Assembly (NCBI GenBank): GCA_003220495.1
Contig: QHSP01000023.1
Coordinates: 43,886 to 107,885, forward strand
Source of the DNA: Candidatus Rokuibacteriota bacterium
Lineage (GTDB): Bacteria; Methylomirabilota; Methylomirabilia; Rokubacteriales; CSP1-6
DNA: 64,000 nucleotides
Reading direction: 5' to 3'
A program made the translations under genes and the position numbers. Under the pieces are notes generated by a model. The model had not been told where the DNA came from. It worked only from the letters and a program-made list of their open reading frames with translations, and ran no database searches. Shown one piece after another: positions 45,119-50,057 of the stretch (position 1 is the first letter of the stretch; each line of letters begins with the position of its first letter).

Positions 45119-45751
45119 GTGATCCGCCGGCTCCAGCGGAATGCGCCGCGCTGGAACCCGACCGCGCTGGCGGTGCTCGCGGAGCGCGACCGCGACCCGT
45201 TCCGCGTCCTCGTGGCCTGCATCCTCTCGCTGCGCACCCAGGACACGACGACCGGGCCGGCGTCGGACCGCCTGTTCGCCGTGGCCGCGACTCCGGAGGC
45301 CATGCTGAAGCTGACGCCGCGGCGAATCGCGCGCCTGATCTATCCCGTCGGCTTCTACCGCACGAAGGCGCGGGTCATCCTCGGCATCTGCCGGGATCTC
45401 CTCGAGCGCTTTGGTGGCCGCGTGCCGGACACGATCGACGAGCTCCTCACCCTCAACGGCGTGGGGCGGAAGACGGCTAACCTCGTCGTGACGATGGGCT
45501 ACGGCAAGCCTGGAATCTGCGTCGACACGCACGTGCACCGGATCTCGAATCGGCTCGGCTACGTGAAGACCCGGAGCCCCGAAGAGACCGAGATGGCGCT
45601 CCGCGGAAAGCTCCCCCGGCGCTACTGGATCGGCTACAACGACCTCCTCGTCTCCTTCGGCCAGAACATCTGCGTCCCGATCTCCCCCCGCTGCTCCCTC
45701 TGCCCCGTCACGACCCTCTGCCCCCGAATCGGCGTCACCACCACCCGCTGA
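45119..45751 (+). CDS. nth: Endonuclease III (DNA glycosylase/AP lyase)
   Basis: 210-residue base-excision repair enzyme removing oxidised pyrimidines. The helix-hairpin-helix is LNGVGRKTANLVVTMG near residue 115, with the catalytic Lys (GRKTAN) and Asp (CVDTHVHRISNR near 140). The C-terminus binds a [4Fe-4S] cluster with Cys spacing 6-2-5 (CVPISPRCSLCPVTTLC). A GTG at 45119 is used as start, 11 bp after the TatT-like stop; other codons upstream are not standard starts. It converges on nfo, the AP endonuclease of the same pathway. Confidence 0.93.
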   Translation: MIRRLQRNAPRWNPTALAVLAERDRDPFRVLVACILSLRTQDTTTGPASDRLFAVAATPEAMLKLTPRRIARLIYPVGFYRTKARVILGICRDLLERFGGRVPDTIDELLTLNGVGRKTANLVVTMGYGKPGICVDTHVHRISNRLGYVKTRSPEETEMALRGKLPRRYWIGYNDLLVSFGQNICVPISPRCSLCPVTTLCPRIGVTTTR

Positions 45752-45903
45752 AGAAGCACGACGACGCGCGACTGGGCAACGCGAGCTCAAGCGCCGCCTG
45801 ACCGAAGCGAGGTCAACCAGCTCCGAAAGCGCGGCGGGAGAAGACGCAGATATTCGACATCCGTCGACGCGTCCGAGGCTTGCGGCTACCGAGCCCGGCC
45901 GCC
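45752..45903. other. Non-coding stretch after nth
   Basis: About 150 bp between the nth stop and the structured repeat at 45904. I see no gene, promoter or terminator in it. Confidence 0.4.
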
Positions 45904-46028
45904 AGCGCGGGGCGGACGGGGAGGGGGACAGGCGAAGTGGGACCCCCTCGTCCCGCCCGCAGCGCGAAGCGCTGCGAATCGGGCGAGCGGGTGACGCAGC
46001 CTGTCCCCCTCCCCGTCCGCCCCACGCT
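45904..46028. repeat. Structured palindromic element, copy 1, between convergent nth and nfo
   Basis: A 30 nt left arm (45904-45933) is the reverse complement of the right arm (45999-46028) at 29 of 30 positions. The 65 nt between them hold a hairpin GCAGCGC-GAA-GCGCTGC (45959-45975), a GGGAC...GTCCC hairpin (45940-45955) and CGCCC/GGGCG pairing around the first. The arms are G-rich on one strand and C-rich on the other. The right arm touches the nfo stop codon (46027-46029). The same architecture occurs at 49437-49582, with about 90% core identity and compensatory changes in stems. Confidence 0.85.
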
Positions 46029-46899
46029 AGCGACCGAGCCGACGCCGCAGCCGACGAAGCACGGCAAGGTTCCGGAGATCAGCAGCAGGCTCCGGCTCCT
46101 TAGGAGTCTCCAACACCTTGGGCACGCGAGCGAAGCGACGGTCGTTGAGCAGAAGTCGGAACGGAACAAGCCCGAGAAGCCCGCGGCCGATGTTCTCGTG
46201 ACGGTCGAGACCCGAGCCGAGCGGAGCCTTTGCGTCGTTCAGGTGAAACGCGAGCACCCGGCAGCGCCCCACGGTTGCCTCGCACTCCGCCATCGCGCGA
46301 CGGTAGCCGGCCCCGGTGCGGAGATCGTAGCCGGCGGCGAACAGATGGCACGTGTCCAGGCAAACGCCGATCCGCTCGGGCCGGGCGGCGCGCTCGAGCA
46401 AGGTGGCCAGCTCGCCGAATGTCCGGCCGATCGTGTTCCCGGCGCCGGCCGTGTTCTCGAGCGCTATCTTGACCCGATAGCCCGCGGTCCGTGCGAGCGA
46501 CTCGTCGAGCGCGGCCGTGACCCGGCCGATCCCCGCCTCGAGTCCGGCGCCCATGTGCGAGCCGGGATGGATGACCACGCATGAGAGGCCGAGTGCCTCG
46601 GCGCGCTCGAGCTCGTCCGTGAACGCGGCCACCGCCTGCGACCACAGAGCGGGGTCGGGATTGCCCAGATTGATGAGGTAGCTCGAGTGCGCGAAGACGT
46701 GCCGGATGGCGGTCGCCCGGCGAGCGGCGCCGAACGCGCGGACCTCGTCCGCCACGAGGGGCTTCGCCGCCCACTGCCGCTGGTTTTTCAGGAAGATCTG
46801 GACCGCGCCGCAGCCGACTTCGCGGCCGCGTTCGAGGGCGAGATGCAGGCCACCCGCGATCGACATGTGCGCGCCGATCTCGTCGCGACGGGGAGTCAT
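46027..46899 (-). CDS. nfo: Endonuclease IV (AP endonuclease)
   Basis: About 290-residue zinc-dependent TIM-barrel enzyme cleaving 5' to abasic sites. Motifs are EIGAHMSIAGGLHLAL at the N-terminus, QIFLKNQRQW near 35, FAHSSYLINLGNP near 70, VIHPGSHMGAG near 108, ALENTAGAGNTIG near 145, GVCLDTCHLFAAGYD near 180 and FHLNDAKAPLGSGLDRHENIG near 215: together the three-zinc site. I use the ATG at 46899; a GTG nine bases upstream would fall inside a TATCGT -10-like box. Complements Nth, which generates its substrate. Confidence 0.94.
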   Translation of the reverse strand: MTPRRDEIGAHMSIAGGLHLALERGREVGCGAVQIFLKNQRQWAAKPLVADEVRAFGAARRATAIRHVFAHSSYLINLGNPDPALWSQAVAAFTDELERAEALGLSCVVIHPGSHMGAGLEAGIGRVTAALDESLARTAGYRVKIALENTAGAGNTIGRTFGELATLLERAARPERIGVCLDTCHLFAAGYDLRTGAGYRRAMAECEATVGRCRVLAFHLNDAKAPLGSGLDRHENIGRGLLGLVPFRLLLNDRRFARVPKVLETPKEPEPAADLRNLAVLRRLRRRLGR

Positions 46900-46933
46900 G
46901 GCGGCCACGATAGCACTCTGTTATCCTGCGCCA

Positions 46934-47908
46934 ATGAAACCCTTCACGATCCCCTCGGCGTACACGACGACGTTTACCCTCGAGTACGGGGTCTCCGAAG
47001 CCGAGATGCGGCGGCTCTACGAAAACGCCAAACGAGACCAGTGGAACGCCTCACGGGACATCCCGTGGACGGACGCGTTCCCGTCCGACGGGCGCGTGAT
47101 CGCGGACGAGCTGATCGACATCTACGGGAGCCCGCTCTGGGAGAGTCTCCCGGAAGCCGACAAGGTCGCGCTGAACCGCCGCATCGCCGCCTGGCGACTG
47201 TCGGTGCTGATGCACGGAGAGCAGGGCGCGCTGCTGGCCTGCAGCCAGATGGTGGACATCGTGCAGGGCGCGGACCAGAAGTTCTTCCAGGCCACTCAGG
47301 TGCTGGACGAGGCGCGCCACAACGAGGTCCTCAGCCGCTACCTCGCCGACCGCCTCGACGGCCTCACCTATCCGATGCCGGTGAACGAGAAGGACCTCTT
47401 CGACTCGATCCTTTCGGAGAGCCGCTGGTACCTCAAGACGATCGCGCTGCAGCTCGTGGCGGAGACCTTCGCAGTCGCCCTGTTCAAGATGATGAGCGAG
47501 AGCGCACGCGATCCGGTCCTCGGCACCATCTGCAAGCGCATCCTCCAGGACGAGTCGCGCCACATGGGATTCGGGATGCTGGCGCTGCCCCGCGTCGTGA
47601 ACGAGGCGTCGGAGGCCGAGCGGCGAGAGCTCGAGGACTACACCTGCTTCGCGCTCGAGAAGACCTTGATGGGATTTTTTCCGCTCGAGGCCTATCAGGA
47701 CGTCGGCTTCAGCGGACAGCAGATCGACGAGGTCAAGCGCTATCGGCGCGAGACGGCCGCGGCCAACGACTACGCACCGTTCCGCAAGTACTTCAAGAAG
47801 GACATGCACGGCGCGATGGTGACGAACCTCGCCCGGCTGGGCCTTCTGACCGATCGCGTGCGGCCGCGCCTCGAGAAGCTCGGCGTCAGCCTGCCGGCGT
47901 CGAGCTGA
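46934..47908 (+). CDS. Ferritin-like diiron protein (R2-like ligand set)
   Basis: 324-residue helical protein. Two ExxH elements separated by about 80 residues (LDEARHNEV near 122 and QDESRHMGFG near 203), each preceded by a Glu about 30 residues earlier (GEQGALLACSQMV and LVAETFAVALF), make the four-helix diiron site of ferritin-like and AurF/R2-type oxygenases. No signal peptide. The substrate is unknown; a desaturase, N-oxygenase or oxidase role is possible. ATG at 46934, with TTATCC 7 bp before, suggests a leaderless start. Its 3' end overlaps the convergent SRPBCC gene by 23 bp. Confidence 0.8.
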   Translation: MKPFTIPSAYTTTFTLEYGVSEAEMRRLYENAKRDQWNASRDIPWTDAFPSDGRVIADELIDIYGSPLWESLPEADKVALNRRIAAWRLSVLMHGEQGALLACSQMVDIVQGADQKFFQATQVLDEARHNEVLSRYLADRLDGLTYPMPVNEKDLFDSILSESRWYLKTIALQLVAETFAVALFKMMSESARDPVLGTICKRILQDESRHMGFGMLALPRVVNEASEAERRELEDYTCFALEKTLMGFFPLEAYQDVGFSGQQIDEVKRYRRETAAANDYAPFRKYFKKDMHGAMVTNLARLGLLTDRVRPRLEKLGVSLPASS

Positions 47909-48359
47909 CCGGCGCGACCAGCTCGCCGAGCCGCCGGGTCCGATAGCGCCACATCGCCGCGATCTGCCGGCGCACGAGCAGCGCGTGCGCGGCCCGTCCG
48001 AGCGGCCCGAGCGGCAGCCGATACGTGATCCGGTCCTCCACCCAGGTCCCGCCGCGCTCCTCGAGAAAGCGGTGGCGGTGCTCCCAGCGCGCGTACGGAC
48101 CCCGCACCTGAACGTCGACGAATCGATAGGGCGGATCCCACTCGCGGATGAACGCGCGCCAGCGGAGCGGGACGCCGAGCCAGGACATCCGGAGGTCGAG
48201 CACCGCGCCCGTCGAGAGCGCGCGCGGTCCGGCGACCACCTCGAGACGGAACGACGGCGGCGTGACGAGCGTCAGGTGCTCGGCCGCGGCGAAGAACGCG
48301 AAGACGTCGGTGCGCGCCCTGGCGAGCCACACGCGCGACTCGAGGATGTAGTCGGCCAT
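47886..48359 (-). CDS. SRPBCC-fold (START/polyketide cyclase-like) protein
   Basis: 157 residues: YILESRVWLARARTDVFAFF at the N-terminus, LRWRAFIREWDPPYRFVDVQ in the middle, and WVEDRITYRLPLGPLGRAAH. This alternation of strands with a long C-terminal helix is the SRPBCC fold, which binds hydrophobic ligands. It belongs to the ligand-binding type often annotated as cell division inhibitor or SRPBCC domain protein; function unknown. ATG at 48359 lies 12 bp after a TATGAT box shared with the divergent exporter gene. Confidence 0.8.
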   Translation of the reverse strand: MADYILESRVWLARARTDVFAFFAAAEHLTLVTPPSFRLEVVAGPRALSTGAVLDLRMSWLGVPLRWRAFIREWDPPYRFVDVQVRGPYARWEHRHRFLEERGGTWVEDRITYRLPLGPLGRAAHALLVRRQIAAMWRYRTRRLGELVAPVSSTPAG

Positions 48360-48370
48360 GACGCGCGCGC

Positions 48371-48377
48371 TATCATA
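48371..48377. promoter_or_regulatory. Symmetric -10 element shared by two divergent genes
   Basis: TATCATA reads as TATCAT towards the exporter (6 bp before its GTG at 48383) and as TATGAT towards the SRPBCC gene (12 bp before its ATG at 48359). The whole divergent gap is only 23 bp. No good -35 is visible in either direction. Confidence 0.4.
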
Positions 48378-48382
48378 GGCAG

Positions 48383-49381
48383 GTGCCCGGAGCGAGTCAA
48401 ACACGCGCCTACGCGACGCTCCTTCTGAGCGTGGCGCTCTGGGGCAGTTTTCCCGCCACCGCCAAGCTCGCGCTCGTCGACTTCTCGCCGTTCTTCCTCG
48501 CCGCAGTCCGCTGCACGGCCGCCTCGTGCTTTCTCCTCGTGCTGCTGGCGCGCTCGTCGAGCGACACGATCCGAGGGCTCGGACCGGGCGCCGCCGGGGT
48601 GTTTCTCGTGCTCGGCGCGGCCGGCATCTGGGGCTCGATGCAGTTCACCTATCTCGCGATCTACAACACGACCGCGGGGAACGCGGTGATCCTCCAGGCG
48701 GCCACACCGGTGATCGTCGTGCTGATCGCGCGCTTCTACCTGGGCGAGCGGCTGCTCCGCGTCCAATGGCTCGGCGTCGCCGCCTCGGTGCTCGGCGTGC
48801 TCCTGGTCATCACCCGCGGGCCCTTCGCCGTGCTCGAGCCGGCGGAGCTGCACTCGGGCGATTTCATCACCTTGCTCTCGCTCGGGAGCTGGGCCGTCTA
48901 CACCGTCTACGGCAAGCGTGTGCTCGCCTCGTACTCTCCGCTGCTCGCGACGACGGCCGCGTACGTCCTGGGCACGATGCTGGTCCTGCCGACCGCGGCG
49001 ATCACCGCGCCGCTCTTCCCCGCCCCGCGCCTGGCGTCGCTCACGGCGTGGGCGGTCGTCTTCTATCAGGGTATTCTGGGCGCCGTCGCGCACATCTGGT
49101 GGTACGAGGCGGTGCTGGTGGTGGGGCCGAGTCAGGCCGCCATCTTCACGAACCTCCAGCCGATCATCGGCATCGTGCTGGCCCCGCTCTTACTCGGCGA
49201 GCGCATCGGCATCTGGCACGTCGTTGGCACGCTCTTCGTGCTCGCGGGCGTCGGCCTCGCGACGCGTGTGTACGCGACCCAACCACTCGACGAGCCCGAC
49301 CCAGCCGCCGAAACAAAACCAGCCCGCGAGGCAAGATCGAGCCACGACGCACGGCCTGCCGATAACGAGAACCCGACCTAG
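48383..49381 (+). CDS. EamA/DMT-superfamily exporter
   Basis: 332-residue drug/metabolite transporter with ten membrane helices in two EamA repeats, for example SVALWGSFPATAKLALVDF, GVFLVLGAAGIWGSMQFTYL, AVILQAATPVIVVLIARFYL and SQAAIFTNLQPIIGIVLAPL (each helix shown in part). A polar, Pro/Glu-rich tail of about 30 residues follows the last helix. Probably exports an amino acid, threonine-like or other small metabolite; substrate unknown. Start is GTG at 48383. A structured palindromic element begins 55 bp after the stop. Confidence 0.88.
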   Translation: MPGASQTRAYATLLLSVALWGSFPATAKLALVDFSPFFLAAVRCTAASCFLLVLLARSSSDTIRGLGPGAAGVFLVLGAAGIWGSMQFTYLAIYNTTAGNAVILQAATPVIVVLIARFYLGERLLRVQWLGVAASVLGVLLVITRGPFAVLEPAELHSGDFITLLSLGSWAVYTVYGKRVLASYSPLLATTAAYVLGTMLVLPTAAITAPLFPAPRLASLTAWAVVFYQGILGAVAHIWWYEAVLVVGPSQAAIFTNLQPIIGIVLAPLLLGERIGIWHVVGTLFVLAGVGLATRVYATQPLDEPDPAAETKPAREARSSHDARPADNENPT

Positions 49382-49436
49382 GAGCGAGGCAGAGAGCCGG
49401 ACGGGACGCTGAGAGATTCGAACACCGCGATGGGGA

Positions 49437-49582
49437 GCACCGAATGGGAGCCGGGGCGGGCGGGGGACCCGATCAGCGAAGTGGGACCCCCTCGTCCCGC
49501 CGCAGCTCGAAGAGCTGCGATCCGGGCGAGTGGGTGACGGAGCCGATCGGGTCCCCCGCCCGCCCCGGCTCCCGTTCGGTGC
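49437..49582. repeat. Structured palindromic element, copy 2, between convergent exporter and peroxiredoxin
   Basis: 38 nt arms (49437-49474 and 49545-49582) are reverse complements at 37 of 38 positions. The core between them repeats the copy at 45904: GCGAAGTGGGACCCCCTCGT, a hairpin GCAGCTC-GAA-GAGCTGC and GGGCGAGTGGGTGACGG. Compared with copy 1, the hairpin pair T-A replaces G-C at the same position, and arm substitutions are compensated on the other side. The right arm ends 4 bp before the peroxiredoxin stop codon. Confidence 0.85.
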
Positions 49583-49586
49583 GTTT

Positions 49587-50057
49587 CTACGGCGAGAGCT
49601 TCTTGATCTCCGAGAGGATCTTGTCGGGCTCCGGCAACTCCCCTTTGCCATACCGCTCGACGAATCGGACCTTTCCTTCCTTGTCCACGATGAACGTCGC
49701 GCGCACGTTGGCGTTCCAGTCGGGCCAGTAGACGCCGTAGTCCTTGGACACGGTACGGTGGATGTCCGAGAGCAGCGGGTAGTGGCTGATGCCGACCGAT
49801 CGAGCCCAGTTGTCGTGGCTGAAGGGGCTATCCGTGCTGATACCCAGCACCTGGGTATTGGCCGCCTGAAAGTCGCTGATGCGCTTGTCGAAGGCAGGCA
49901 TGCACGTGCTTCAGCCCGGCGTCCAGTCGAGCGGGTAGAACAGGATCACCACGTTCTTGCCGCGGAACTCCGCGAGGCCGACCTCCTTGAGGCCGATCGT
50001 CCTGAGCGTGAAGTCGGGCGCTGTGTCGCCGACGTTGAGCACCTTGTTGTCGCTCAA
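49587..50057 (-). CDS. Selenocysteine-containing peroxiredoxin (in-frame UGA at the catalytic position)
   Basis: 156 residues including one in-frame TGA (49913-49911) read as selenocysteine. Upstream of TGA: VGDTAPDFTLRTIGLKEVGL and FYPLDWTPG; downstream: STCMPAFDKRISDF, VLGISTDSPFSHDNWARSVG, YPLLSDIHRTVSKDYGVYWP, ATFIVDKEGKVRFV. This is a complete AhpC/TSA peroxiredoxin in which the peroxidatic Cys of the FYPLDWTP-x-C motif is replaced by UGA, giving a UxxC pair. A stem-loop at 49901-49879 could be the SECIS. The TTG start at 50057 has AAGGGGGG 8 nt upstream and overlaps the UPF0282 stop (TTGA). Standard gene callers would begin at the Met at 49901 and lose the N-terminus. Confidence 0.8.
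49879..49901 (-). promoter_or_regulatory. Candidate bacterial SECIS hairpin
   Basis: Starting 10 nt after the UGA: AUG pairs with CAU, UG with CG, and CUU with AAG around the tetraloop CGAC, with small bulges (CC and C). The loop G is 22 nt after UGA, inside the 16-37 nt range described for bacterial SECIS elements with a G in the first loop bases. The stem is short, so this is only plausible. Confidence 0.4.

Follow-up and report, generated by a model that had tools for sequence, protein, structure and literature searches.

The DNA analysed here is a stretch of 64,000 nucleotides (the window) from a Candidatus Rokuibacteriota bacterium (GenBank assembly GCA_003220495.1, contig QHSP01000023.1, positions 43,886 to 107,885 of the forward strand), whose genome (G000; window contig C131) comprises 5.98 Mb on 159 contigs. 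The window harbors two long hairpins that share a conserved core, defined here as type A. We consider it likely that both are eroded copies of a 219-bp miniature inverted-repeat transposable element (MITE) that would be moved in trans by an IS1380-family transposase and would insert at CTAG tetranucleotides, often within TAG stop codons, and that their arms have probably been kept complementary by template switching. The features of the two sites are listed below; the genes were called with our own codon-usage script and the protein names are taken from Pfam.

45119..45751, + strand: gene of an HhH-GPD DNA repair protein, left of copy 1 (codon-based call, Pfam).
45896..46036, + strand: copy 1 (type A), whole hairpin, with no recognizable terminal inverted repeat remaining.
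45896..45933, + strand: G-rich 5' arm of copy 1, the outermost stretch matching the AP-endonuclease gene end as an imperfect inverted copy.
45932..46000, + strand: conserved core of copy 1, 69 nt, 59/69 identity with the core of the 219-bp MITE consensus.
45999..46036, + strand: C-rich 3' arm of copy 1, holding a CTAG (46027-46030) with the TAG stop of the minus-strand gene.
46027..46908, - strand: AP_endonuc_2 gene, right of copy 1, stop TAG within the 3' arm.
48431..49381, + strand: EamA transporter gene, left of copy 2 (longest open reading frame from 48383).
49437..49582, + strand: copy 2 (type A), whole hairpin, with no recognizable terminal inverted repeat remaining.
49437..49474, + strand: G-rich 5' arm of copy 2.
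49476..49543, + strand: conserved core of copy 2, 68 nt, 59/69 identity with the MITE consensus core.
49545..49582, + strand: C-rich 3' arm of copy 2, ending 4 nt short of the TAG stop of the minus-strand peroxiredoxin gene.
49587..50045 (start not fixed), - strand: AhpC-TSA peroxiredoxin gene, right of copy 2, with an in-frame TGA.

The initial annotation had described two long hairpins with a shared core and dissimilar but self-complementary arms, and our analysis confirmed this description. The cores agree at 62 of 69 aligned positions, the arms of copy 2 pair at 37/38 positions and those of copy 1 at 29 of the inner 30 (35/38 over their full length of 38 nt), and the paired change in the inner hairpin (G-C versus T-A) is real. 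Both copies are located between convergent genes, with facing stops at 45751(+)/46027(-) and 49381(+)/49587(-), and the claimed proximity of an arm to the minus-strand stop is even closer at copy 1, where the 3' arm overlaps the final 10 nt of the gene including the stop itself (CTA, 46027-46029). The same TAG terminates the AP-endonuclease gene in the relative G003, where the element is absent. The TAG stop of the EamA gene is part of the other CTAG of the copy 2 region (49378-49381). It is possible that the arm of copy 1 was derived as an inverted copy of the gene end.

A scan of the window for hairpins with a score of at least 14 and a loop of at most 130 nt retrieved only copies 1 and 2 (scores 29 and 35), whereas five locally shuffled windows contained 0, 0, 1, 1 and 0 such hairpins with a top score of 15. 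Stable stems at convergent gene ends are reminiscent of intrinsic terminators that act in both directions and preserve their long stems through compensatory mutations. Inspection of the sequence documented, however, that neither hairpin is followed by the T run of an intrinsic terminator, as had been noted before, and the two are the sole long hairpins in the window, so that most of its gene ends do without one. Together with their patchy distribution across species and the intact copies with terminal repeats and CTAG ends, this makes terminators an improbable explanation. Matches to Rfam 15 at gathering score are lacking in the 64-kb window. At E <= 1, nine type A loci returned a single match (MIR918 on L020, 41.4 bits versus a gathering score of 268), which looks like a long-hairpin artefact, and nine further loci (eight of type B, see below, and L093) returned none.

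The two copies belong to a dispersed family, in contrast to the scenario in which no further copies exist or the arms of other copies do not stay complementary. A DNA search of G000 yielded 24 rows, and a covariance model built on 16 copies yielded 23, two of which are reverse-strand readings of the same hairpin, thus leaving 21 places. Excluded from the model alignment were L011, L014, L015, L021 and L023 (broken arms or cut core), L009 (reverse of L001) and the weak L022 and L024. Long complementary arms are present in 16 of 20 examined copies (not in L011, L014, L015 and L021). Across the 16 aligned copies 93.8% of the structure cells are paired, 74 cells changed on both sides versus 26.4 after shuffling, and the imperfect inner loops are retained. 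Under stricter filters, which may miss weak matches, the model found the family in 14 of 59 genomes including G000 (13 of 58 relatives). Its distribution is uneven within the genus (30 rows in G007, 8 in G003, 0 in G005 and G008), and it reaches other genera (15 rows in G029, 12 in G021). A pattern scan with one genome per species returned 99 stretches, and all 80 with a printed title are from Rokubacteria; plasmids and phages were searched without a match. Two opposite-orientation pairs of type A hairpins about 280 bp apart were observed, one per genome (G000:C47:42223-42596 and G007:C147:116529-116902).

The convergent setting of the two window copies is not a general rule. Among the 20 distinct copies of G000 (22 listed rows, with the pair L004/L005 counted twice and L023 missed by the pattern), 10 are convergent, 8 tandem, 1 divergent and 1 called inside a gene, which weakens the label of a convergent-gene module; location beside a stop codon is the stronger siting rule.

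The intact form of the family was found in G021 and G029, where the homology between copies reaches well past the core and ends in inverted repeats starting with CTAG. The terminal inverted repeat begins CTAGCCCG. Scanning for it gave 33+34 matches in G021 and 44+28 in G029, compared to 0+0 and 1+0 for a reversed-repeat control, 27 matches in G026 and 1 to 8 in five other genomes. From 431 loci we retrieved 76 distinct repeat-bounded elements, of which 54 contain core A, 3 contain core B and 19 contain neither. They are 62-291 nt long and non-coding, and 50 of the 54 core A elements fall between 205 and 222 nt, yielding a 219-nt consensus that folds into one long hairpin with imperfect stretches. 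This anatomy, i.e. terminal repeats, multiple copies, short length and lack of coding capacity, identifies the family as MITEs by size and repeat structure. The window copies, which have no recognizable terminal repeats, are therefore read as eroded derivatives on account of their core identity of 59/69. As a bacterial MITE the family has three unusual traits, namely a CTAG and stop-codon habit, a likely IS1380 parentage and a body that is probably a self-correcting palindrome. Six coreless derivatives (L406, L407, L408, L409, L412 and L414; 56-128 nt) carry the same terminal repeats, as if formed by symmetric internal deletion, and MITEs of a distinct group, whose ends are related (GCCCGGATTATGCGTGAACAC; L399-L404, L415-L417), occur in G026, several of them at contig ends.

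The search for the transposase partner pointed to IS1380. IS630/Tc1-mariner elements were rejected as partners, because none of the 13 DDE_3 (IS630) loci in 8 genomes carries the family repeat at up to 6 mismatches. Among 24 DDE_Tnp_1 loci, only L451 of G003 has repeats at both ends, located 1,532 bp apart around the transposase, which matches the IS1380 model NF033539 of NCBIfam with 262.7 bits (cut-off 180). Relatives of this transposase were matched at E <= 1e-30 in 13 of 57 genomes of the family. With up to 5 mismatches allowed in 22 positions, 7 of 10 distinct close homologues (at least 60% identity) are flanked by the repeat on both sides, with spans of 1,532 to 1,698 bp, and the other 3 on one side, while 0 of 4 more distant loci possess it. 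A transposase of the IS1380 family is thus likely to mobilize the MITE in trans, judging from the matching ends. One study used IS1380 as outgroup of piggyBac, whose target duplication is TTAA with rare variants such as CTAA and TTAG (PMC10813416), which makes a CTAG tetranucleotide target plausible.

The initial annotation had suggested a REP/MITE-like family and a check for a linked RAYT transposase. The MITE part of this proposal is supported by the terminal inverted repeats, the CTAG target, the copy number, presence and absence among relatives and a transposase family whose elements share these ends. The REP part failed. REP/BIME elements spread by RAYT (Y1) transposases would likewise be imperfect palindromes, mostly intergenic and multi-copy, but Y1_Tnp (PF01797) has 0 matches in G000, while 5 of 14 control genomes are positive, and the elements have DDE-type terminal repeats and CTAG ends instead. 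REP/RAYT was hence rejected and is a highly improbable source of the family.

The conspicuous association with stop codons is a property of the intact elements. Of 100 gene stops facing the ends of the 76 repeat-bounded elements, 55 lie exactly on the terminal CTAG (51 TAG, 4 TAA), and 53 elements have at least one such stop; since the loci were chosen for holding elements, these statistics describe elements and not random sites. A clean filled/empty pair is provided by the element of L134 (1942-2158; G029), which reads CACCTAG-element-CTAGGCC, and the empty site CACCTAGGCC of L126 (G021), with the same TAG gene stop in both. CTAG is present at both ends of the element, as expected for a target-site duplication; a 4-bp CTAG and a 2-bp TA both fit. 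CTAG itself is rare in these genomes, with 19 occurrences in the window versus 181 expected, of which 8 are located at TAG stops, 4 inside genes and 7 between genes. Because it is rare and often part of a TAG stop, an element that seeks CTAG would be led to gene ends and would settle there without breaking genes. Close stops (at most 12 nt from well-paired arms) are TAG in 26 of 42 cases for type A and 13 of 17 for type B. In a separate count, stops close to an element of type A or B are predominantly found on the 3' side of the core (41:19 and 25:4, respectively). In the tandem copies of G000 the stop facing the element belongs to a gene on the 3' side of the core in 8 of 8 cases, compared to 6/13 tandem rows in G007, 7/10 in G001-G006 and 12/16 for type B; an orientation bias blurred by core inversion would give these counts.

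Type B hairpins have the same architecture with another core (GACCCGTTCC...GGATGGAGCCCAGCC...CGTGCCGCGTGGTC) and were found in 9 of 9 genomes of the genus, where between 14 and 42 rows match in each. They also occur within the same terminal repeats, as documented by 3 of the 76 repeat-bounded elements (e.g. L410:633-906). The type B core is longer, and the type (L157:5210-5371, L191, L198, L220-L249) outnumbers type A in most of the nine genomes. Part of the type B counts, on which this comparison also draws, stem from a first look in which no more than 40 candidates were scored in any one genome. Hairpins with still other loops occur in several genomes, including G007 and G000, and additional long, near-perfect ones are L149:459-619, L093:3902-4065 and L185:6598-6734.

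At the window sites the relatives carry other elements or none. The copy 1 site harbors core A in G000, core B in G008, a hairpin with another loop in G007 and no element in G001, G003 and G005; type A is hence missing in all five relatives that align on both sides (G002 and G004 are not alignable). At the copy 2 site none of the relatives aligned on both sides (G003, G005 and G007) has any element. The L006 site exhibits core A in G000 and core B in G001 and G008, and the idea of different cores within one ancestral hairpin was abandoned because it is indistinguishable from repeated insertion at the same place. In G006 this site holds a coreless, perfect 17-bp hairpin with a 4-nt loop (L190:10204-10241).

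The arms and the core have evolved in different ways. Well-paired arms were present in 92 of 146 type A candidates, collected with a loose pattern that admits chance matches and armless copies, and in 36 of 41 of type B. The complementarity of the arms within a copy amounts to 0.906 (A) and 0.939 (B), whereas arm identity between copies is 0.51 and 0.49, compared to 0.40 and 0.43 for shuffled sequences. Sixteen orthologous pairs from 11 sites, whose means include L096 with its cut core, have a mean identity of 0.885 in the core, 0.65-0.68 in the arms, 0.725 at third codon positions and 0.855 in the flanks; the pairs L091/L113 (element identical), L004/L086, L117/L129, L126/L134 and L131/L139 were excluded. 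The arms on average turn over faster than third codon positions and yet stay paired, while the core changes more slowly. Relative to the flanks the core is inverted in 4 of the 16 pairs and at 4 of the 11 sites. One orthologous site (L013/L107/L102/L073) has perfect arms in two species, over 40/40 positions in L013 and over 50/50 in L073, so that the two arms differ in length together. The arms of L239 extend 32 nt into both convergent genes, whose proteins share their last nine residues (AASVPGEAR). Their orthologues end earlier or differently, which documents that both genes were extended into arm sequence, and the view that arms are always inverted copies of a gene end was dropped.

Concerted arm length, inverted cores and shared protein endings are hard to obtain from point mutation and selection, and together they point to template switching at the DNA level. 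Homogenized arms and inverted spacers have been reported as signatures of template switching between inverted repeats (PMC8604942), and RNA hairpins have been proposed to arise and persist through this process (PMC8794818). The conclusion of the initial annotation that covariation argues for selection on a folded RNA or cruciform does therefore not follow from the paired changes. Our reconstruction is as follows: a 219-bp MITE would have been moved in trans by an IS1380-family transposase and inserted at CTAG, often at the TAG stop of a gene; the window copies, with their shared core and stop-side position, probably descend from such insertions and have then eroded; and template switching between the arms as the DNA is replicated, rather than selection for pairing alone, would later have preserved their complementarity. 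Template switching is probably the main maintainer of the arms, with a folded-strand function as the serious rival.

This rival holds that former MITEs have been retained as a structured 3'-end module, in which folding of the hairpin strand or of the neighboring mRNA would protect transcripts or terminate them, with both pairing and core under selection. The higher conservation of the core compared to third codon positions, the location beside stops, the preserved imperfect inner loops and the finding that arm mismatches on the core strand are more often G.T than A.C (103:68 in type A, 39 versus 13 copies; 28:12 in type B, 16 versus 4 copies; p-values are nominal because related copies were treated as independent) speak in its favor, and the G.T excess keeps a role of the folded strand possible. 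The same convergent sites lack a type A copy in alignable relatives, however, the core orientation is flipped in a quarter of the pairs, no Rfam family was recovered from the window, and, given the 3'-side position of most close stops, the strand with the G.T excess is mostly antisense to the adjacent gene. We regard a retained module as possible, yet doubtful.

Several observations weigh against descent from an IS1380-mobilized MITE and maintenance by template switching. The G.T excess and the slow core are among them, both being unexpected under pure decay with template switching. The window copies have no recognizable terminal repeats, none of the 8 repeat matches in G000 lying on C131, and a close IS1380 transposase (E <= 1e-30) is lacking in G000, so that their descent rests on core and position. 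TA is present at both termini in 35 of the 54 type A elements, which leaves CTAG and TA competing as the duplication. Only one of four filled/empty comparisons is clean, namely L134 versus L126 (the four concerned the own element of L126, L134, which was compared twice, L389 and L395), some of the exact stops could reflect genes shortened by insertion, and the end of an IS1380 element coincides exactly with a called stop in only 1 of 7 cases. TAG is also common at stops 13-400 nt from the arms (36/70 in type A, 10/22 in type B; baseline 63/208), and the excess next to the arms is therefore partly non-positional. Finally, the inverted pair L003/L089 has such dissimilar arms (0.45, 0.38) that it may reflect two independent insertions.

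The IS1380-family insertion sequences share the transposase family and the 22-bp ends with the Rokubacteria elements, but they are coding and 1.5-1.7 kb long, while the repeat-bounded elements are non-coding and measure 62-291 nt. BOX elements of Streptococcus pneumoniae have a modular boxA/B/C structure that the Rokubacteria family lacks. BOX repeats at the extreme 3' end of a gene supply its stop codon in 36 cases, a parallel to the Rokubacteria family, with ISSpn2 as their proposed partner (PMC3049150). RUP of the same species (107 bp, proposed mobilization by IS630-Spn1) is likewise a small non-autonomous repeat with ends like a resident insertion sequence (PMC2229807, PMC3049150); it has a TA-containing target and an IS630-type partner, whereas the Rokubacteria family goes with CTAG and an IS1380-type partner, is palindromic over almost its entire body and tends to end on stop codons. 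Correia/NEMIS elements of Neisseria are MITE-like, about 107-156 bp long with inverted repeats of 24-26 bp, and bacterial repeats of this kind are said to yield highly base-paired transcripts (PMC2229807, PMC3049150). Their host and partner are different, and a core with hypervariable arms does not figure in the parts of their descriptions available to us. Arm homogenization, multi-base compensatory change and loop or spacer inversion are shared with template-switch hairpins (Monttinen and Loytynoja 2022, PMC8794818; Abraham and Hazkani-Covo 2021, PMC8604942), which concern RNA genes and yeast coding genes, while the Rokubacteria family is dispersed and mobile, its arms measuring about 38-61 nt. 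Judged by titles and the beginnings of abstracts, the papers listed by searches of the open-licence literature include no treatment of palindromic repeats in Rokubacteria or of IS1380-linked MITEs, and none of those listed combines IS1380, CTAG and target site.

The 92 type A and 36 type B hairpins exhibit strong arm covariation that is partly concerted and DNA-templated in appearance. Covariation is widely regarded as the best evidence of functional RNA, and methods for RNA discovery could be calibrated against template switching with this set. The family further hints at a simple, harmless lifestyle for a mobile element, namely to target a tetranucleotide that is underrepresented in the genome and frequently belongs to a stop codon. 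Tentatively, the stop-codon-seeking MITE may be a self-correcting palindrome in which template switching rewrites the arms and flips the core, and whose constrained core was co-opted as a host 3'-end module after mobility was lost. If so, covariation of the grade expected for RNA would arise without selection on RNA, and the ends of neighboring proteins would be rewritten in passing.

A minor observation concerns the peroxiredoxin gene next to copy 2 (49587-50045, - strand), whose in-frame TGA is located at the position of the expected active-site cysteine (FYPLDWTPG-U-STCM); from this motif, we take the product to be probably a selenocysteine peroxiredoxin.

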